Source: Gammaproteobacteria bacterium
GTDB lineage: Bacteria > Pseudomonadota > Gammaproteobacteria > Ga0077536
Length of the DNA: 64,000 nt
Direction: 5' to 3'
Assembly: GCA_021773835.1 (NCBI GenBank)
Contig: JAJFJQ010000046.1
Span: 62,001-126,000 of the forward strand
The notes under the pieces are model-generated. The model was not told where the DNA came from. It saw only the letters and a list, made by a program, of their open reading frames with translations, and did no database searches. The translations under genes were made by a program, and so were the position numbers. This document shows, in pieces, positions 3,100-59,740 of this stretch. Every line of letters starts with the position of its first letter. The stretch's first letter is position 1.

Positions 3100-3771
3100 A
3101 TGAACTACCCGCCACTTAAACCACCTTATCGAGTGATGATTGTGGACGACCACAAGTTCGTCGTGGAGCTCCTTGCTCAGCGTCTATCGGTTGAATCGAA
3201 GGTCGAAGTCGTTGGCATGGCGAATCGTGGCTCATCCGCACTGCATATCGCTGAAAGTGAGAAAGTCGACATTGTTCTGTTAGACATGGAGTTGCATCAA
3301 GAGGATGGAATTCACGTTGCGCGTGGTCTTCTTCAAATTGATCCAAAAATAAGAATTATCGGTTTATCCATGCATGACGCTGACCACCACCCGATATCGC
3401 TACTCGAACTTGGTGGTCTCGGGTTTATCTCTAAGTCCGCAACTGGCCGGGAAATTATTGATGGGGTTAATCGAGTCGCCGCTGGGGATATGGCAATTAG
3501 CCCTAAAATTGCAGTGTACTTAGCAACCCAATGCTCGAACCAAAACCCGATCGGCCAAATCCGGTCTTTGTCTCCGAAAGAACTGGGCGTACTGAAATTT
3601 ATTGCGCAAGGATATAGCATTAACGAAATCGCGAAAAAACTGGACGTCGGTGGTAAAACGGTCTCAGGGCACCGTGCTCAGTTGCGGAAAAAGCTACAGG
3701 TGGCAACGGACGTCGAGTTATGCCTGCTAGCGATCAAATCGGGGCTTATAGGCATCCATCAAGATCTCTAA
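3100..3771 (+). CDS. LuxR/NarL-type response regulator
   Basis: 223 residues: an N-terminal receiver (MIVDDHKF, acceptor Asp62 in VLLDMELH, switch Lys in GFISKSATG) and a C-terminal LuxR-type helix-turn-helix from about 150 (SPKELGVLKFIAQGYSINEI, then KTVSGHRAQLRKKL). It lies 80 bp after the hybrid kinase in the same direction and is its probable output, acting as a DNA-binding transcription factor once phosphorylated through the HPt domain. This differs from the Xanthomonas Rpf system, where the partner RpfG is an HD-GYP c-di-GMP phosphodiesterase. Targets are unknown; the adjacent desaturase gene is the obvious candidate. Confidence 0.88.
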   Translation: MNYPPLKPPYRVMIVDDHKFVVELLAQRLSVESKVEVVGMANRGSSALHIAESEKVDIVLLDMELHQEDGIHVARGLLQIDPKIRIIGLSMHDADHHPISLLELGGLGFISKSATGREIIDGVNRVAAGDMAISPKIAVYLATQCSNQNPIGQIRSLSPKELGVLKFIAQGYSINEIAKKLDVGGKTVSGHRAQLRKKLQVATDVELCLLAIKSGLIGIHQDL

Positions 3772-3934
3772 TCATCGTGTACAATGCGGCTTCTGTAACG
3801 GAAACTCGCATTTTTGACCACAACTAACGCTCCGGCACTGCGCATCTCCATCCATTTTGAGGCACCTAGGCAGTGACGGGCAAATGGTCCAAGCTCAGGG
3901 GATAGCTCGAACAATATAATCGGCGTGACTACTC

Positions 3935-5056
3935 GTGATTGAAAGAGCCCAACCACCCGAGGTCAACCACCCGGCCACCGAAACCTCGCAAGCGAAAACC
4001 CTACGCCAAGCCCTGCGCCCCTACACCGTGCGCTCGAACGTCAAAGCGCTGGCAATATTTTCCGTCTTCTATGGCAATCTCCTCGCGTTGGTAGCGCTTG
4101 CTCTGTACGTCGACAACATTTGGTTACGCATGCTGTGCGCCGTGTCTGCCGGTGGCAGTATTTCTGCGTTGTTTGTTATTGGTCACGATGCGGCGCACAG
4201 TTGTTACTCCAGTAATAAATCCTTGGATGCATTGCTCGGGCGTTTGGCATTACTGCCGGCACTGCACAACTTCACCTTATGGCGCATTGTGCACAATCGT
4301 ATGCATCACTTTGAGTTGTGCGTGCAGGGGTTGAATAGCTGGAGCCCGTTGTCGAAAGATGAGTTCGATCGATTGCCGGCGTGGCGCCGTGCGGTGGAGA
4401 AACTCTATCGCTCCCCGCTTGGTCTTGGACCTTACTATTTCGTCGAGCGCTGGCTGAAAGACAAGTTTCTACCCACAGCCCGAATGCGCGATACGCGGCC
4501 GCTACAGCAATGGTTCGATTTCTTTGGGATCCTGGCGTTTCTTGGGGTGCTGGGAGTCATTTTTTGGTTTGCTGCGCAGTCCCTGGAGCATCTGTCCTAT
4601 GGTGAAGCTTGGCTGTGGGGGTTTGTCGTGCCGTTCCTGGTTTGGAATTACTTAATGGGTTTCACCGTATATGTGCAGCACACCCACCCCTTGGTGCCGT
4701 GGTTCAGAACGAAGCAAGACGAGGACCAAGCGGGGGTCGGCCAGCACCAATTGTCAGTACAGCTTGTGTTTCCCAAAGGCTTCGGCTTGATCTCTAATAA
4801 CATCATGGAGCATCCCGCCCATCACGTGAATACTAAAATCCCGCTGTACAATCTTGCGAAAGCTCAACGTCATCTCAATGAATTGATTGGACCGGCTGCG
4901 GTGATCGAACGTTTTACCCTGCCGACGTTTCTGCGCATCATGAAACACTGCAAGCTATTTGATTACGACAACCGGCGATGGCTTGGCTTCGATGGTTCCC
5001 CGAGTGTGTATCCCGATCCGGCGGCGGGTTACGGCGATACTGCACGCACAGCGTAA
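3935..5056 (+). CDS. membrane fatty-acid desaturase
   Basis: 373 residues with the three histidine boxes of membrane di-iron desaturases: HDAAHS from His84, HNRMHH from His120 and EHPAHH around His293, plus an extra HTH near 249. Hydrophobic stretches around 40-90 and 205-250 fit four membrane passes. It would introduce a double bond into an acyl chain; substrate and regiospecificity cannot be read from the sequence. The start is GTG with no clear Shine-Dalgarno, and the first internal ATG would cut into the membrane region, so the exact start is uncertain. It follows the RpfC-like kinase and regulator by 163 bp on the same strand, which suggests membrane-lipid adaptation or fatty-acid signalling as context. 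Confidence 0.88.
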   Translation: MIERAQPPEVNHPATETSQAKTLRQALRPYTVRSNVKALAIFSVFYGNLLALVALALYVDNIWLRMLCAVSAGGSISALFVIGHDAAHSCYSSNKSLDALLGRLALLPALHNFTLWRIVHNRMHHFELCVQGLNSWSPLSKDEFDRLPAWRRAVEKLYRSPLGLGPYYFVERWLKDKFLPTARMRDTRPLQQWFDFFGILAFLGVLGVIFWFAAQSLEHLSYGEAWLWGFVVPFLVWNYLMGFTVYVQHTHPLVPWFRTKQDEDQAGVGQHQLSVQLVFPKGFGLISNNIMEHPAHHVNTKIPLYNLAKAQRHLNELIGPAAVIERFTLPTFLRIMKHCKLFDYDNRRWLGFDGSPSVYPDPAAGYGDTARTA

Positions 5057-5174
5057 CATACTCTTTGCGCCGTTAACTTCTAATTGATTATTCTCGTTAA
5101 GCGAGTGCACGAATTGAAACGATCGCGCGCTTGCCTATCAACGTTAGATCTCTAGCGCTGCATCAACACTTCCC

Positions 5175-5936
5175 ATGAACACTCCAATGAGCGATGACAC
5201 GGCAGCAGTAGCGGCTGCTATCAAGCGTGCCGAGCGCGTCGCGATATTTACCGGCGCCGGGATCTCAGCCGAATCGGGCTTACCGACCTATCGTGGCGTG
5301 GGCGGCTTGTACAACGACATGACCGTCGATGAAGGATTACCCATCGAGGAGGTACTCTCAGGCGGTATGTTCGCCCGATCGCCTGAAATCACCTGGAAAT
5401 ATATCGCCGAGATAGAGCGCGCTTGCCGTGGCGCGGCTGCCAACGATGCCCATCGCGCGATTTTGGCACTCGAGGCCGTTGCTGAAGTGTGGGTGATCAC
5501 GCAAAACGTCGATGGTTTTCACCGCGATGCCGGTAGCGCCAATGTGATCGAGTTGCACGGTAACTTAGCCGATCTTGCTTGCACGCAGTGCGACGCGAAC
5601 TTTACCGTGCGTGACTATGCTGAGTTAAGCATTCCACCGATATGCGATCGCTGCGCTGGCATGATGCGACCGAGCGTTGTGTTATTTGGCGAGATGCTAC
5701 CGGACGCCGCAGTTACCGAATACGATCGGATCTTTCGCGCGGGCTTCGATCTTATTTTCGCGATCGGAACGACCGCCGGCTTTCCCTATATCTACGAACC
5801 AATTGCCCAAGCCTCTCGACAAGGCGTTACCACTGTAGAAATAAATCCCGATGAAACACCCTTGTCTAACGTCGTAACGCATCGCTTTACCAGCGGTGCG
5901 GGCGTCGCACTAAAATCGATCTTGGATGCAATGTAG
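5175..5936 (+). CDS. Sir2-family NAD-dependent protein deacylase
   Basis: 253 residues. The NAD-binding signature GAGISAESGLPTYRG starts at about 27. TQNVDGFH is at about 109, the catalytic His128 is in ELHGNL, and a structural zinc site is formed by Cys136, Cys139, Cys157 and Cys160. GTTAGFPY replaces the usual GTS-V-P loop. The enzyme removes acyl groups from lysine using NAD, giving nicotinamide and O-acyl-ADP-ribose. The chain is close to bacterial CobB length. The class III Tyr-x-x-Arg desuccinylase motif is not obvious, so acyl preference is open. It sits 118 bp after the desaturase and may or may not be co-transcribed. Confidence 0.9.
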   Translation: MNTPMSDDTAAVAAAIKRAERVAIFTGAGISAESGLPTYRGVGGLYNDMTVDEGLPIEEVLSGGMFARSPEITWKYIAEIERACRGAAANDAHRAILALEAVAEVWVITQNVDGFHRDAGSANVIELHGNLADLACTQCDANFTVRDYAELSIPPICDRCAGMMRPSVVLFGEMLPDAAVTEYDRIFRAGFDLIFAIGTTAGFPYIYEPIAQASRQGVTTVEINPDETPLSNVVTHRFTSGAGVALKSILDAM

Positions 5937-52783: not shown

Positions 52784-53516
52784 GACGTTGACTCATCCCT
52801 TGCGATATTGCGGCTGGCGCCGCACTTTTGTAATTACGCCGTTGCTCGTTCGTCTCATCGTTATTTGTGTGCTTGCGTTCAGGATATCGCACGTCCACGG
52901 TTTGATCCGGACCGTATAGAGAACTGACAAGTTTCGGCAGCAAATGTTCAGCGGCATGGCCACAATCGATGTCGATGCCAAAATCTTTCAGCTGGGTGAC
53001 TTCGAGCCCTTGATAACCACACGGGTCGATGCGAGTGAACGGCTCTAGGTCAAGATCGACATTTAAAGACAAGCCGTGATAACTCTGGCCTCGACGAATA
53101 CGTAGACCTAATGCCGCGATCTTTGCGTCGTGAACGTAAACGCCAGGTGCACCGGGGCGACGATCCGCGAGAAGACTAAGACTCGCCAGCATTTCAATGA
53201 TCCCTTGTTCGATACGGCGCACGAGTTCGCGCGGACCGACACCGAGCCGCTTAATGTCGATTAAGGTGTAGGCGATCAGCTGGCCAGGCCCGTGGTAGGT
53301 GACCTGTCCACCGCGATCGCTCTGAACGACGGGAATGTTACCGGTATTGTGCACGTGCACAGCACGCCCGCCCTGTCCTTGAGTGAACACCGGTTCATGC
53401 TCAAGAAACCAAATCTCGTCAACCGTATCGGGCCTGCGGCCGTCAACAAACGCCCGCATCTGCGAGAGCGCCCACGCGTAGTCCACAACGTCATAATGTC
53501 GAACAACGAGATTCAT
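52770..53516 (-). CDS. lipB: octanoyltransferase LipB
   Basis: 248 residues. [20 protein letters not shown] holds the substrate-binding part, Lys in [14 protein letters not shown] and the catalytic Cys in [13 protein letters not shown]. It transfers octanoyl from acyl carrier protein to lipoyl domains. Its last 40 residues are a hydrophilic tail ([17 protein letters not shown]) not seen in E. coli LipB, partly encoded over the lipA start. ATGA overlap with the DUF493 gene upstream. Confidence 0.95.
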
Positions 53517-53788
53517 AGCACCATTAGTATCCGGTCATGGGCGCTAAGCTCGCGATATAGCTCGTCGAGCTGATGTTGACCCTGCGCCTCAAAAGTGACT
53601 GTAACTGAGACATATTTACCATTCCGGCTCGGCCGAATGGCGACCGCGCCCTCGTTGATATCGCCGATGTGGCGCATCACAATCTCAACGACCAACGCGT
53701 CAAAATTGTTCTCAGCGACCCCCATCACTTTTATCGGGAAATCACACGGAAACTCAAATCCTGTCTGGGTGTTGTCGTTGCTGCGCAA
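53513..53788 (-). CDS. ybeD: DUF493 family protein, YbeD
   Basis: 91 residues. [20 protein letters not shown] and [20 protein letters not shown] are typical of this ACT-like fold that precedes lipB in gammaproteobacteria. No ATG is in frame; translation probably starts at TTG 53788. Function is unresolved in the family. It overlaps lipB by 4 bp. Confidence 0.9.
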
Positions 53789-54345
53789 TATCGCTATTCC
53801 GTGTGGCCTTCAGTGCGTATCCAATTCTAGCGTCAAAAGGACCTCCAATTAAGGAATTTCACAATTCGCTCGCGACGTACGCCACATACGACGTTAGAAA
53901 TCATGCGGAATTAGTGTTCAACAAATTGGCGCGTCACGGTGCGATATACATCACTGTCGCCCTTCAAATGTTTCTGGCACCACGTCACCTGGACAATTTT
54001 ATTAATAAAGTGTGAATTGCGGCCGCTATACCTTTGGATCCGCGTCATGGCGCCTCGTTGTTGTTGTTATGACACGAAAAAGGCGGTCCATTAGGTGAAA
54101 ATCGTCTAGAATTGATCGTCATACAGACAATTAAATGAGAAGGGGGACGGCAGGATGACAGATGCTCTGTTCGGCTTGTTTTATCTGGTCGCCATTGTTG
54201 TCGTGATACTACATTTCACTGGCTGGCTAGAAGAGCACAACATGGAGTGGCTGGTATTCGTAATGGCCGTATTGGTGTTTCCGGTCGTTATCTTCTTATA
54301 GGGCATTTCATCCCCGACAAACGGCCCTGATCCGAAACTCAAGCG
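53789..54345 (+). other. intergenic region with a possible broken small gene
   Basis: About 560 bp. Apart from the small frame described separately it holds no gene. It marks one side of the block inserted between ybeD and dat. A TAGAAT at 54107-54112 could be a -10 element. Confidence 0.35.
54156..54301 (+). pseudogene. possible 48-residue membrane protein, interrupted by a one-base slip
   Basis: An ATG at 54156 after AAGGGGGACGGCAGG reads MTDALFGLF and then stops early. In the next frame, the text continues as a hydrophobic, two-helix sequence (LVAIVVVILHFTGWLEEHN, then WLVFVMAVLVFPVVIFL) to a TAG at 54301. One extra T in the TTT at 54180-54182 would give a continuous small membrane protein with a good ribosome site. 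It may be a pseudogene, a sequence error or coincidence. Confidence 0.35.
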
Positions 54346-54849
54346 TTAGTCGAGCAACTTCGGCCGCTGGTGGTATAGCGAGGTCCCACATCCTCGATCG
54401 AGCATCTCCTGATTCATATTGATGTCGAACGCGTAAACCGCAGCGGTTGGCATTAACTTAGAGAACTCGATCCGGCTCTCCAACCCGGGATCAAGAAAGG
54501 CGATCAAGGACTCAAGCCCAGGGTTGTGGCCAATCAGGACCCAGCAGTGGCTAGGCGGCCGACGCGCTACCTCGATTAATTCATTAAGATCAGCGAGATA
54601 GAGACTTGCTTCGTAAATAATCGGTATCCCGTCGAGTGCTTCGGCGACAATCTCAGCGGTCTCGGCGGCGCGTCGCGCCGGGGAAGCCTTAATGCAACTA
54701 GGCGTGATGTCGAGCTCGCGTAGATATCGTCCCATCCTCAACGCGTCGCTACGGCCTCTAGAATTGATCTGCCGCTCGAAGTCCGTCCCGTGCGTTGCCG
54801 TCCAATCCGATTTCGCGTGTCGCATAACAATCAGCCTCTGATCGCCCAT
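54346..54849 (-). CDS. sixA: SixA-like phosphohistidine phosphatase
   Basis: 167 residues. The histidine-phosphatase motif is LIVMRHAKSDW with the nucleophile His, then ASPARRAAETAEIVAEAL and the second His in VLIGHNPGLESLI. This short form removes phosphate from phosphohistidine in HPt-type proteins (SixA on ArcB) or phosphocarriers. Ribosome site GGGAGGAG. It is the only minus-strand gene of the block between ybeD and dat. A relay to dephosphorylate exists in this window, but the link is not shown. Confidence 0.85.
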   Translation of the reverse strand: MGDQRLIVMRHAKSDWTATHGTDFERQINSRGRSDALRMGRYLRELDITPSCIKASPARRAAETAEIVAEALDGIPIIYEASLYLADLNELIEVARRPPSHCWVLIGHNPGLESLIAFLDPGLESRIEFSKLMPTAAVYAFDINMNQEMLDRGCGTSLYHQRPKLLD

Positions 54850-54994
54850 TTCTCCTCCCTAATGGTGAACTCTGTCGCAGCCTGACGACGCCAGCTTGTC
54901 GCAGCCACATTGTATGGCTATATATCGTATGGGTCCCACAATTCAGGTGAACCCCTAACCACAAATCAATGAAACTGGATTATTCGACGAAACG

Positions 54995-56128
54995 ATGATG
55001 CAAGCACTTGCCCTCGCCGAAAACTTGGAGGAACCCCAAGAGGCTGACCATGAAATAACGATCGATCTGGCGGTCCTTGCACAGGTAAGCCGCGGCGACC
55101 GTATCGAAGTCGAAAATCTTGCCGACCGTACGCTCGATTTATTTCAACGTACCCTGCGGATAGTCGATGAGCAATCCGACGAGGCCGTAGATAGGAATCT
55201 CAATCCACAGGACCCAAACCGATTCGTCCCAGAACACCGGGACCTCAGGCAACGTTTCTTATTTGCCGAGACCCTAGGCAGTTATTCAACGCTCCACGAC
55301 CTACTCGACGGCTACTCACCTGCCTACCGTCTGTCGATGGATTACGACGAAAAGGCTAGGATCGCACGATTAAATGACTTCGAAGTTCGCGCGCTAGAGG
55401 AATATCGCGATCAAATTCACGACGCCTTGCTGCATGCCAATGAGTATCTGCTTGCAAACGCCTCCGCAGGTTACACCTCCGAGGAGCTTCAGCAACTCAA
55501 TGAAATCTTGCTAGAGGCGCGGGCGCGCTTTGAATCCGTCAACGCGATTCTAGGAATGAATCTCATTTACGAAGTCGAGACCAGCGTGCGGGAGTTATAT
55601 GCATTCCAGGAAAAGATACGCACGGTTAAGCGCTCTATCGACGGTATCTTCCTAGTCGACAGTGAGGTCATGTTCATGCCCACTAACGACTTGGTGAGAA
55701 TCGTAAATAACCTATTTAAGGCGGTAGGTAATCCGTTCGTCGCCGAACACATCGATGGCATACTGTTGCTCGCTGCCCGTAACCTTCTGATCCAATCAGT
55801 TTCTTTCTATTCCTACTACGGGAAACAGCAAATTTACACGGTCTTCAAGAGAAACAACGCAACCGTCAACCGAAGCATGATTACGCACCATATCCGCAGT
55901 GAGATTAAGAAGCTGTTTCGTGCCTGCACGACCGAAAACCGACTCGTTTTAAAGCGCGTAATGAACGATGCGGAACGAGAATTTGAGATTTCGGTCGATT
56001 CCATCCGGGCCGAAGCAGAGCGCTCAGCCGTGGAGGTCGTGAATCAATTGATCCCGGAGCCGGTTGCTCCCCCTCCTCCCCCACAAAAATCGTTTATGCA
56101 GCGGATTTCCAACTGGTTGTTCCGCTAA
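54995..56128 (+). CDS. helical protein of unknown function with C-terminal Pro linker and amphipathic end
   Basis: 377 residues, no family recognised. An acidic N-terminus is followed by long helical stretches (LLANASAGYTSEELQQLNEI, then ARARFESVNAIL) and a charged middle (FFKR-type patches near 280-300). At the end is EPVAPPPPPQKSFMQRISNW then LFR: a proline linker and a short amphipathic helix that could attach the protein to a membrane. No enzymatic motif visible. It starts at ATG 54995 or 54998 without a clear ribosome site. It is followed by the cyclic-nucleotide-binding gene (63 bp gap), suggesting they are one unit. Confidence 0.8.
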   Translation: MMQALALAENLEEPQEADHEITIDLAVLAQVSRGDRIEVENLADRTLDLFQRTLRIVDEQSDEAVDRNLNPQDPNRFVPEHRDLRQRFLFAETLGSYSTLHDLLDGYSPAYRLSMDYDEKARIARLNDFEVRALEEYRDQIHDALLHANEYLLANASAGYTSEELQQLNEILLEARARFESVNAILGMNLIYEVETSVRELYAFQEKIRTVKRSIDGIFLVDSEVMFMPTNDLVRIVNNLFKAVGNPFVAEHIDGILLLAARNLLIQSVSFYSYYGKQQIYTVFKRNNATVNRSMITHHIRSEIKKLFRACTTENRLVLKRVMNDAEREFEISVDSIRAEAERSAVEVVNQLIPEPVAPPPPPQKSFMQRISNWLFR

Positions 56129-56191
56129 CGCAATCTGCACTGTAAGATCCACCGTGAGGGAAACACAACGGATCGGTGGAGACGAACGGAC

Positions 56192-57064
56192 ATGCCAACA
56201 TTGCGTGCCAGTGTCGAGTTACTGCAACAGGTGCCCATCTTTGCGAGCTTGACGGAAGATGAGCTACGGCAAATTATCCAATCGCCCGATAACGGAATCG
56301 TCAATTTCAAACCACTCGAGACGATAATTTCGGAGGACGAATTCGGCGATTGTATGTACATCATCTTAGATGGTGCGGTGGATGTTCGGATCAAGGCTGT
56401 CGGGGGTCGAGAAATCACGATCGCGACATTAAAATCTGGTGAATTCTTCGGCGAGCAAGCGCTACTACCCGGGACAACCGGCAAACGAAATGCTGGTGTT
56501 CGAGCGCTGCAAAGCTGCCAGTTGTTTAAGATCACAAAAAAGGATGTCGCACTCGGGATAAGCCAAGACGAAGACTTGAGCGTCGCCCTAGATGATATCA
56601 ATTCCGCTCCGCCCGATGAGCGCGTGCGAATGCTTATCCGCAGCGTCCGATTGTTTCGTTCGTTATCGAAGAAAGACCTCGATAACATTGAATCTTGGAC
56701 CGAAGTCGTCAAATACGACGCCGGCGAAATTGTTGTGCGCGAAGCGGAAGAGGGCGACTATATGTACATCGTACTCGACGGCTCTGTAGAAGTGTTCGTG
56801 GTCGACGACGACGGTCAAATTGTAGTGTTGAGCGAGCTATTCAAAGGTAATTATTTTGGCGAACAAGCGCTGCTGCCTGAAAGCTCCGGTAAGCGAAACG
56901 CGAACGTGCGGGCCAATGGGCCTGCTGTTCTTGTGAAAGTCGCAAAGAAATACTTTCAACTCATCGTAAATCACGACAATAAATTGATGCTGGCATTAAA
57001 AGCAGTCGGCGAAGCGCAGAAAAGTAAAATTGTTAACGCAATCGGCCAGTCGTTCGATTGGTAA
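56192..57064 (+). CDS. tandem cyclic-nucleotide-binding-domain protein
   Basis: 290 residues, two cNMP-binding domains at about 10-125 and 150-270. Each has a phosphate-binding cassette: FFGEQALLPGTTGKRNAGVR and YFGEQALLPESSGKRNANVR, both with the Glu and Arg that hold the ribose and phosphate. They differ in few positions, pointing to duplication. There is no HTH, kinase or membrane domain, so it looks like a pure sensor or regulatory subunit for something else, as in the arrangement of a protein kinase A regulatory subunit. It has GGTGGAG before the ATG. It lies 95 bp ahead of the ABC ATPase gene on the same strand. Confidence 0.9.
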   Translation: MPTLRASVELLQQVPIFASLTEDELRQIIQSPDNGIVNFKPLETIISEDEFGDCMYIILDGAVDVRIKAVGGREITIATLKSGEFFGEQALLPGTTGKRNAGVRALQSCQLFKITKKDVALGISQDEDLSVALDDINSAPPDERVRMLIRSVRLFRSLSKKDLDNIESWTEVVKYDAGEIVVREAEEGDYMYIVLDGSVEVFVVDDDGQIVVLSELFKGNYFGEQALLPESSGKRNANVRANGPAVLVKVAKKYFQLIVNHDNKLMLALKAVGEAQKSKIVNAIGQSFDW

Positions 57065-57159
57065 GCCGATATTCGGCTACCGATTGAATTCTAAGTAAGC
57101 AACCCTATTCCAACCAATGCGTCCGGTGGTGTGACCGCGAACGCACCGATCCTAGCTAA

Positions 57160-58074
57160 ATGCACGCCCTAGAAATTCGTAATCTCACAAAAACCTATGC
57201 GAGCGGTATTCGTGCACTTGATGGTATCGATCTTAACGTCGATCAAGGCGAATTCTTCGCGCTACTTGGCCCAAACGGGGCCGGAAAGTCCACCGCGATT
57301 GGAATAATCTCATCATTGATAAACAAGAGTTCCGGGCTCATTAAGGTCTTCGGAATCGATACTGACCATGACTTCGACCGCGCAAAGTCGTTGATTGGAT
57401 TGGTGCCGCAAGAACTGAATTTCTCACAGTTCGAGTCAGTGTCCGAAATTGTGCTCAATCAAGCAGGCTACTATGGGATACCTCGCCGGAGCGCCCGCGC
57501 CAATACTGAAAGATTCCTCCGTCAATTGGGACTTTGGGATCGCAGAAATCAACGTTCACGAGATCTATCCGGCGGAATGAAGCGCAGACTGATGATTGCG
57601 CGCGCTTTGGTACACGAGCCGAAACTGCTTATTCTTGATGAACCAACCGCCGGGGTAGACATCGAGCTGCGGCGATCGATGTGGGATTTCTTGCGCGATC
57701 TGAATGCTGCCGGGACAACGATTATTCTAACAACTCACTATTTGGAAGAGGCAGAACACTTATGCCGCAATATCGCGATCATCAACAGAGGCCAAATAAT
57801 AGAAAACACTTCGATGAAGCGCTTGCTAACACAATTGCATGCCGAAATATTTGTGCTGGATCTGTCAGCGCCAATTAGTGCGGCACCCGAAGGAAGTGAT
57901 TTCGACTTCCGTCTGAAGGACGATACAACACTGGAAGTGGTGGTTTATTTGGGTCAAACCATCAACGATGTATTCGAATTTTTATCCGGTAAATCTATCC
58001 AGGTGACGAGTATGCGAGGAAAATCAAATCGCCTTGAGGAGCTTTTCGTTAATTTGATCCAAGAAGATGAATAG
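57160..58074 (+). CDS. ABC-2-type exporter ATPase, YadG-like
   Basis: 304 residues. Walker A LLGPNGAGKSTAIGIISSLI, Q-loop region GLVPQELNFSQFESV, ABC signature LSGGMKRRLMIARALVHEP, Walker B LLILDEPTAGVD and switch His in LTTHYLEEAEHL. It drives export through the permease encoded 8 bp later (overlapping ATG...). Substrate unknown. No strong ribosome site is visible before its ATG. Confidence 0.92.
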   Translation: MHALEIRNLTKTYASGIRALDGIDLNVDQGEFFALLGPNGAGKSTAIGIISSLINKSSGLIKVFGIDTDHDFDRAKSLIGLVPQELNFSQFESVSEIVLNQAGYYGIPRRSARANTERFLRQLGLWDRRNQRSRDLSGGMKRRLMIARALVHEPKLLILDEPTAGVDIELRRSMWDFLRDLNAAGTTIILTTHYLEEAEHLCRNIAIINRGQIIENTSMKRLLTQLHAEIFVLDLSAPISAAPEGSDFDFRLKDDTTLEVVVYLGQTINDVFEFLSGKSIQVTSMRGKSNRLEELFVNLIQEDE

Positions 58075-58876
58075 CACCACAACTTTTGAAGTGGACATGA
58101 AAAGCCGATGGCAACGTAACAGGATTGCGTTTCAAACAATCTTTTCCAAGGAGCTCGCGCGGTTTCTGCGCATATGGATGCAGACGATCCTACCGTCAGC
58201 CATAACGATGGCTTTATATTTTGTGATATTTGGGAATTTAATTGGTTCTCGGATCGGCTCTATGGGCGGCTTCAGCTACATTCAATACATCGCCCCCGGC
58301 ATCATCATGATGGCTGTTATTACGAACTCGTATTCGAACGTGGTCTCTTCTTTTTTTGGCGCGAAATTCCAACGCCATATCGAAGAAATCCTGGTCTCGC
58401 CAGTCCCGCACGTTTTGATTGTCGCCGGCTACGTCGCAGGCGGTGTCGCTCGCGGCGTGATCGTCGCATTTGTCGTACTAATGGTCGCGCTGTTGTTTAC
58501 AGAAATTCAGATTTATTCGTATGCAATAACGCTAGCAGTCGTAGTCTTAACGGCTACATTATTTTCGATTGGTGGGTTAATCAATGCGATATACGCGAAG
58601 AAATTTGACGATATATCGATCGTGCCAACATTTGTTCTGACGCCGCTGACCTATCTAGGCGGTGTATTCTATTCAATTGATTTATTACCAGACTTTTGGC
58701 GCACCTTGTCGTTGGCAAATCCAGTGCTGTATATGGTCAACGCATTTCGATATGGAATACTAGGTGTAAGCGATATCGGCCTTGGAACTGCCTTTTTAGT
58801 GATCATCGTATTCACCAGTGGCTTGTTCTACTTTAGCCTGTCGCTACTTCGCCGCGGGGTCGGTATCCGAAGCTAG
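58067..58876 (+). CDS. ABC-2-type exporter permease, YadH-like
   Basis: 269 residues with six membrane helices, FGNLIGSRIGSMGGFSYIQY, IAPGIIMMAVITNSYSNVV and GAKFQRHIEEILVSPVPHV, as in YadH and other ABC-2 permeases. It overlaps the end of the ATPase gene. With the ATPase it forms an exporter for an unknown lipid, sugar or drug. It ends 10 bp from the convergent dat gene. Confidence 0.92.
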   Translation: MNSTTTFEVDMKSRWQRNRIAFQTIFSKELARFLRIWMQTILPSAITMALYFVIFGNLIGSRIGSMGGFSYIQYIAPGIIMMAVITNSYSNVVSSFFGAKFQRHIEEILVSPVPHVLIVAGYVAGGVARGVIVAFVVLMVALLFTEIQIYSYAITLAVVVLTATLFSIGGLINAIYAKKFDDISIVPTFVLTPLTYLGGVFYSIDLLPDFWRTLSLANPVLYMVNAFRYGILGVSDIGLGTAFLVIIVFTSGLFYFSLSLLRRGVGIRS

Positions 58877-58885
58877 GACTCGTGA

Positions 58886-59740
58886 TTATTCGGTTTTGCC
58901 CCCGACGCTTTCTCGATAAATCTGATAAACCGATTTTACGCGCTGAAAAAGCGGGCCGATTGAGCCATCCCCAACCTGCTTTTCGTCGATTTTTATTACT
59001 GGGACGAGTTCTCTACTTGAACTTGTCAACCAAACTTCGTCGGCGTCCATCAATTCGTGGAGCGAAATTGATTCTTCGCGCGCCGATGGATCTGTGCCAT
59101 CGAGTAACTCGACGATCAAGTTTCGTGTAACCCCGGACAGGATTTCGGACGTCAACGGGGGTGTCTTGACTACCCCAGACTTCGCAATGAAGACATTGCA
59201 AGCTGCGGCTTCGGTGACAAAGCCATCTCTTATATAGATTGCTTCTTGCGATCCGAGGCTAGCTGCATGTGCCCGAGCCATGACATTGGCGATAAGCGAC
59301 GTCGTTTTGATATCACATCGATGCCAACGAAAGTCCTCGATCGTGACCGCCGTGATGGGCTCTACGTCGTGCGACCGCTTCAGCGGCGAAGACATTAAAA
59401 ATACCGTCGGTTCAACGGCCGAATTCAGCACATGGTCTCGGGGCGCGACACCGCGTGACACCTGAATATAGATTGTTTGGTCGCCTTCGCCGTGCAGCCC
59501 GATCAACTCTTCTACGATCGACGTCCAACGGTGCGTGGGTAAGGGATCGACAATCGAAACGGCTGCAAGACTGGCGCGGAGCCGCTGAAGATGCTCGAGT
59601 AGTCGAAATGCGCCACCGCCGAACACCGGGATGACTTCATAGACCGCATCACCAAAAATAAACCCTCGATCCAATACCGAGACCTTCGCTTCGCGAAGCG
59701 GTAAGAAGCGACCATTGAGGTAGCAGATTGAATCCGTCAT
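58886..59740 (-). CDS. dat: D-amino-acid aminotransferase Dat
   Basis: 284 residues. SVLDRGFIFGDAVYEVIPVF, the pyridoxal-phosphate Lys in CDIKTTSLIANVMA and EAAACNVFIAKSG are the class IV aminotransferase pattern. It makes D-amino acids (D-Ala, D-Glu) for peptidoglycan, or acts on branched-chain amino acids; the position after dacA favours the D-enzyme. It starts 21 bp after the dacA stop. Confidence 0.9.
   Translation of the reverse strand: MTDSICYLNGRFLPLREAKVSVLDRGFIFGDAVYEVIPVFGGGAFRLLEHLQRLRASLAAVSIVDPLPTHRWTSIVEELIGLHGEGDQTIYIQVSRGVAPRDHVLNSAVEPTVFLMSSPLKRSHDVEPITAVTIEDFRWHRCDIKTTSLIANVMARAHAASLGSQEAIYIRDGFVTEAAACNVFIAKSGVVKTPPLTSEILSGVTRNLIVELLDGTDPSAREESISLHELMDADEVWLTSSSRELVPVIKIDEKQVGDGSIGPLFQRVKSVYQIYRESVGGKTE

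Follow-up and report, generated by a model that had tools for sequence, protein, structure and literature searches.

The YadGH exporter of Escherichia coli is encoded as a two-gene pair, an ATP-binding cassette (ABC) ATPase and a permease of the PRK15066 subfamily, and its genes are not known to have neighbours of the types described here: a cyclic-nucleotide-binding (CNB) protein, a protein without family that we call HEL, and a small membrane peptide. We analysed a 64,000-nucleotide stretch of a gammaproteobacterial contig (JAJFJQ010000046.1, positions 62,001 to 126,000; hereafter the window) in which a pair of the same kind lies between ybeD and dat, together with genes for HEL, for a protein with two CNB domains in tandem and for a membrane peptide of 48 aa. 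Reports on E. coli deal with fosfomycin (PMC11980398) and an anthocyanin (PMC11026601), and the former describes a small RNA that reportedly binds YadG and alters fosfomycin export with the amount of YadG unchanged. In Pseudomonas putida yadG and yadH are listed in a table of c-di-GMP/FleQ-regulated genes (PMC8125075). Such permeases are common (homologues in 266 of the 369 Gammaproteobacteria sampled here), yet the control and natural substrate of the exporter are little understood.

Association of CNB domains with transporters is known from other systems. The family of TIGR03896 (cyc_nuc_ocin, bacteriocin-type transport-associated protein) belongs to cyanobacteria and goes with peptidase exporters. 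The CNB protein of the block is likewise a stand-alone protein, matched by the model over its CNB part, and the family is tied to a transporter by its name, but the block’s protein scores 74.6 bits against the subfamily cut-off of 161.05. Serial CNB domains without a DNA-binding domain are also found in the PKG/PKA-R regulatory subunits, unlike which the block has no kinase and a longer phosphate loop (FGEQALLPx3GxRNAxVRA). In HetC of Nostoc a CNB domain is likewise tied to an ABC exporter, and it is reported to be required for the exporter to function and to have ppGpp (Kd 59 uM), not cAMP, as its ligand (PMC10986499). HetC is a single protein in which a peptidase and one CNB domain are fused, whereas the block has a separate tandem CNB protein and an ABC-2 exporter. 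Since CNB-bearing exporters are already known from HetC, the block varies an existing kind; family 2B encapsulins reportedly carry a CNB domain as well (PMC8346489). No title describing the arrangement of the block was found in full-text searches of open-licence PMC papers, and the HEL and peptide families are its most original part.

Linkage of the CNB gene to a YadGH-type exporter

The linkage between sensor and exporter is real and is the firmest in the block. In the window and in 24 of the 29 CNB loci fetched (25/30) the gene next downstream of CNB, read from the same strand, is that of the ATPase, and this adjacency spans seven gammaproteobacterial families (f1, f9, f71, f96, f119, f133 and f140). 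Of the 369 genomes sampled from the class, 18 have a CNB orthologue (E <= 1e-30), the permease figure given above being at E <= 1e-50, and in 15 of these 18 the CNB gene was immediately 5' of the ATPase gene. The two have also been inherited together, the distances among CNB proteins following those among exporters (Mantel r 0.78, 0/5000 permutations; 22 rows comprising 21 loci and the window, excluding L057 and loci without a complete CNB, ATPase and permease). An initial annotation of the window had joined a second-messenger sensor to an exporter and had named a lack of linkage elsewhere as what would speak against it; this objection fails given the linkage in seven families. The five fetched loci without adjacency are L059, which reaches a contig end, and L106, L108, L109 and L110.

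The genes that the initial annotation had placed between ybeD and dat are all there, and four of the five it named lie on the strand opposite to that of ybeD and dat, as it had said. The features are:

53513-53788, minus strand, ybeD, left flank
54155-54301, plus strand, gene of the 48-aa membrane peptide, with two hydrophobic stretches flanking a charged loop; open reading frame with a purine-rich stretch upstream
54346-54849, minus strand, SixA-like histidine phosphatase; PF00300 at 43.7 bits, RHA and GHNP motifs
54995-56128, plus strand, HEL, a 377-aa family-less protein, mostly helical by a low-confidence model; no family or PDB match, 8 relatives
56192-57064, plus strand, CNB, tandem cyclic-nucleotide-binding protein; two PF00027 stretches, E 8e-41
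57160-58074, plus strand, YadG-like ABC ATPase; PF00005 at E 5.2e-31, nucleotide-site motifs present
58067-58876, plus strand, ABC-2 permease of the YadH subfamily; NCBIfam PRK15066 at 404.3 bits, cut-off 225
58886-59740, minus strand, dat, right flank

The core of the block is thus predicted from its models to be a widespread YadGH-type ABC-2 exporter. The permease is well above the subfamily cut-off and the ATPase has its Walker A, LSGG signature, Walker B and H-loop all intact; the 25 rows listed of 195 for NCBIfam included no model specific to YadG. The spacing is 63 bp between HEL and CNB and 95 bp between CNB and the ATPase gene, which overlaps the permease gene by 8 bases, a layout from HEL to permease that is expected of a single transcript, so the four genes are probably co-transcribed. 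No RNA was found with Rfam at the gathering threshold between 53500 and 59800.

The genome of the window (G000, 6.1 Mb) is gammaproteobacterial and belongs to a family of 36 genomes in the collection; a search of its taxonomic order returned the identical 36. The searches for family genomes, permeases and cyclase domains refer throughout to the matches listed. The interval was readable in 31 of the 36 (G001, G002, G010, G024 and G031 were left out) and contained the ATPase gene in 30, sixA in 26, CNB in 15, the peptide in 13 and HEL in 6. The one interval without an ATPase gene seen is that of G006, where the contig stops inside CNB and the permease is on a separate contig. In this family it is normal for ybeD and dat/dacA to have an exporter between them, and the block as a peculiarity of this one genome was rejected. 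In G003, of the same genus and with a permease 89% identical, sixA and the exporter are kept and the peptide, HEL and CNB are absent at the site; the exporter can thus do without all three. The fewest changes on a lipA/lipB/dacA tree were 6 for the peptide, 5 for HEL and 3 each for sixA and CNB. CNB, HEL, sixA and the peptide have been gained or lost separately around a constant exporter, and the unit is modular. The expectation that the block would always be together or absent in relatives did not hold, and one fixed gene unit was rejected since its members occur independently among the 31 genomes; of the joined sensor and exporter the linkage stands and the fixed unit does not.

Outside this setting the exporter on its own occurs in many gene contexts. 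We inspected 40 further exporter loci, a non-random set of better-scoring permeases without an adjacent CNB gene, some of them ending at contig ends. HEL, sixA and CNB proteins of the block’s type were absent from all of them. L158 has a more distant CNB protein (23% identity), the peptide occurred once, and dat or dacA was nearby in four.

Putative ligand sites of the CNB protein

The CNB protein contains two PF00027 domains, and Pfam at E up to 0.1 gave nothing else, a DNA-binding domain included. It scores 96.4 bits against the CRP model, under the cut-off of 266, and its best match among PDB sequences comes from a cGMP-dependent protein kinase (E 2.7e-30). The phosphate-binding cassette of nucleotide-binding CNB proteins has a Glu and an Arg. 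Both domains in the window carry the motif given above, and in 29 sequences (L057, whose CNB is split across two frames, was excluded) the ligand-site Glu is kept in 28 for domain A and in all 29 for domain B, the Arg in 29/29 and 25/29, respectively. The longer loop and the Gln distinguish the protein from CNB motifs in 21 other stretches of these genomes, in some of which the Arg-Asn-Ala is also present.

Matches to class III cyclase domains number 23 in G000 and at least two in each of the 15 CNB-bearing family genomes; five of six genomes of the small-genome genus g3 had none among the matches listed. As side observations, G032 has 41 such matches genome-wide, and G000 has 28 CNB-domain matches genome-wide, 26 of them above cut-off. 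The split CNB gene of G032 (L057, 8737-9610), with no sixA between CNB and peptide, may reflect an assembly error or decay. In L106 an exporter-less CNB relative adjoins a globin-coupled diguanylate cyclase (3240-4709 and 4758-5921; PF11563, PF00990). Near two of the CNB-exporter loci, L104 (820-1785; f140) and L105 (10348-12737; f119), there are Alpha-E and circularly permuted ATP-grasp genes, the Alpha-E call in L105 being by sequence likeness only.

HEL, the membrane peptide and the sixA-like gene

HEL has no match to curated families or solved structures. A profile of 8 HEL sequences matched the PDB at chance level (best E 0.18), its members gave sub-threshold Pfam matches (best E 0.012), and a scan of viral contigs gave no HEL relative. 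Scanning the contigs of all GTDB species with a sequence pattern, a method that detects close relatives only, returned one match, and HEL was present in 4 of the 369 class-sample genomes, two of them from the family of G000. It precedes CNB in the window, L016, L017 and L018; the contig of L019 stops just past HEL. Two genomes have HEL next to the ATPase gene without CNB: G017, where it is directly 5' of it (107 bp), and G063 (family f29), where it is 48 bp upstream at a site with neither lipB nor dat within the 18 kb read. HEL is thereby linked to the exporter itself as well as to CNB.

The initial annotation had seen in HEL a possible membrane-bound partner. This is unsupported, and HEL as a membrane protein was rejected, since it has no transmembrane-like stretch, its best 19-residue Kyte-Doolittle mean of 1.38 being too low for a transmembrane segment; the membrane partner may instead be the 48-aa peptide. 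The C-terminus of HEL has a proline-rich linker, plain in seven of eight aligned sequences, and then a short tail ending in WLFR, with a mean hydrophobicity of 0.51-0.70 and a moment of 0.42-0.63, values compatible with a putative anchor to the membrane or to a partner. AlphaFold2, run on a two-row alignment of the window and L015 (the record of an uncultured groundwater Gammaproteobacteria relative), gave HEL a confidence score (pLDDT) of 46. The low value is uninformative, as the same set-up gave 42 for CNB, the fold of which is known.

The peptide gene, overlooked in the initial annotation, sits in the 557 bp that separate ybeD from sixA. Homologues 48-53 aa long, sought by tblastn in the fetched loci only, are found in 12 other family genomes and, outside the family, in L111 and L112 (f71) and L131 (f120). 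In 14 of these 15 peptide loci the contig also carries the ATPase gene, and there the peptide is on the exporter’s strand; in L019 it shares the strand of HEL. Over 120 pairs of 16 sequences the mean nonsynonymous divergence (pN) was 0.24 and the mean synonymous divergence (pS) 0.61, with pN/pS below 0.5 in 93 pairs. With pN below pS on average, the gene is under selection at the protein level. Neither Pfam, searched at E up to 10, nor NCBIfam, at its cut-offs, has a family that it matches. In the family HEL is always accompanied by the peptide (6/6; Fisher p 0.0023, with six gene pairs compared in all). At the same end of the block a YqeC-like gene is inserted beside ybeD, before sixA or CNB is reached, in the relatives L016, L051, L057, L071 and L072 (called by PF19842 for L051 and by sequence likeness for the other four).

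A divergent sixA-like gene is a frequent neighbour of the block. RH and GH are catalytic motifs of the histidine phosphatase fold, and the protein has RHA at 10 and GHNP at 107 with its PF00300 score above cut-off. Its identification as SixA stands for the fold and the motifs; it does not extend to the equivalog, TIGR00249 being matched at 47.8 bits, below the cut-off of 74.5. Outside the family the gene is present in 4 of 12 CNB- or HEL-bearing exporter loci (L082, L111, L112 and L116, from three families, with L111 and L112 of one genus) and in none of the 40 others, an association that is suggestive in samples that are small and uneven. Within the family sixA is independent of CNB (Fisher p 0.33). 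A further gene was seen in three exporter loci: a pyridoxal-dependent decarboxylase (PF02784/PF00278) is divergent beside HEL or CNB in L082 (7064-8266; f29) and L103 (7250-8434; f133), and the same decarboxylase, by the start of its sequence, is found in L116 (1975-3282; f9).

Possible nucleotide control of the exporter

We propose that the block encodes an optional, nucleotide-responsive and post-translational control layer on YadGH, placed upstream of it in some lineages, a proposal to which we give an even chance of being right. Without a DNA-binding domain the CNB protein would act by protein contact, and as it also lies beside the exporter in seven families the simplest reading is that it regulates the exporter in this way. 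The tandem domains would bind a nucleotide, most likely cAMP or cGMP and possibly ppGpp or c-di-GMP, and the protein would contact an exporter protein and alter the exporter’s ATPase cycle, a direction of regulation that we likewise infer. Precedents are HetC, with its required CNB domain (PMC10986499), and E. coli YadG, with the small RNA that reportedly binds it (PMC11980398). In lineages that have them, HEL would serve as an adaptor in the cytoplasm and the peptide as a small subunit in the membrane. A more elaborate form, in which HEL, CNB and the peptide make up a detachable gate on YadGH and the nucleotide signal is relayed via the adaptor and the peptide subunit, is put forward only tentatively.

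Several observations weigh against the proposed control layer, the support for which is gene neighbourhood. In 16 of the 31 family genomes the exporter is present and CNB absent, and five genomes without CNB at the site (G008, G016, G022, G009 and G017) have 6 to 16 cyclase matches. Conversely, the CNB genes of L106, L108, L109 and L110 have no neighbouring exporter, and G364, the genome of L110, had no permease match among the matches listed. His replaces the ligand Arg of domain B in 4 of 29 sequences, and the domain of HetC is reported to bind ppGpp rather than cAMP (PMC10986499). Promoter-like sites (2 against 6.0 expected) and terminator-like sites (6 against 6.1) are at or below shuffle level. 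As for the companions, G280 and G401 (f134) have no exporter gene within 18-19 kb around HEL, with a permease homologue elsewhere in the genome of G280. No peptide match was found in the stretches fetched for the HEL-bearing G063, G280 and G401, and the pairing of HEL with the peptide reduces to just 5 independent pairs, 3 concordant and 0 opposite (median p 0.25).

It is possible, if less than probable, that CNB and the exporter are an old pair of neighbours, kept together by vertical inheritance and shared expression, and that the CNB protein serves a different target. This would fit the CNB genes that stand elsewhere than beside the exporter, namely those of f12 (G046, G198) and G364 and one of the two that G043 has, and the rarity of the CNB orthologue in the class sample next to the many permeases, most exporters being without CNB. 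It fits less well with an adjacency to the ATPase gene that persists in seven families although the remaining neighbourhood changes. Another explanation would be that the CNB protein no longer binds nucleotide and has become a structural adaptor of the exporter. The His in domain B and a loop longer than in the other CNB proteins examined point in this direction, but the near-complete retention of Glu and Arg in both domains and the cyclase domains in every CNB-bearing family genome make it unlikely. A cyclic-nucleotide anti-phage defence system, as hinted at by the patchy distribution of HEL and by matches of CNB to Pycsar-type models of PADLOC (best E 8.6e-20), was rejected as highly improbable, because these matches arise from the shared CNB domain, the remaining PADLOC matches fall on the generic ATPase and none on HEL, sixA or the permease, inheritance tracks the exporter at a site that in the family is fixed and flanked by housekeeping genes, and the TIR or membrane effector plus dedicated cyclase of Pycsar-type loci have no counterpart between ybeD and dat, where there is no TIR, other effector or cyclase gene.

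A sensor gene kept beside the exporter in seven families offers a handle on how this exporter is switched, and the block exposes two uncharacterised protein families, HEL and the peptide, that are easily left unnamed or missed by annotation. If the detachable gate on YadGH were correct, the whole would be a second-messenger-gated ABC-2 exporter whose sensor is supplied in trans and some of whose parts come from two families that match none of those curated.

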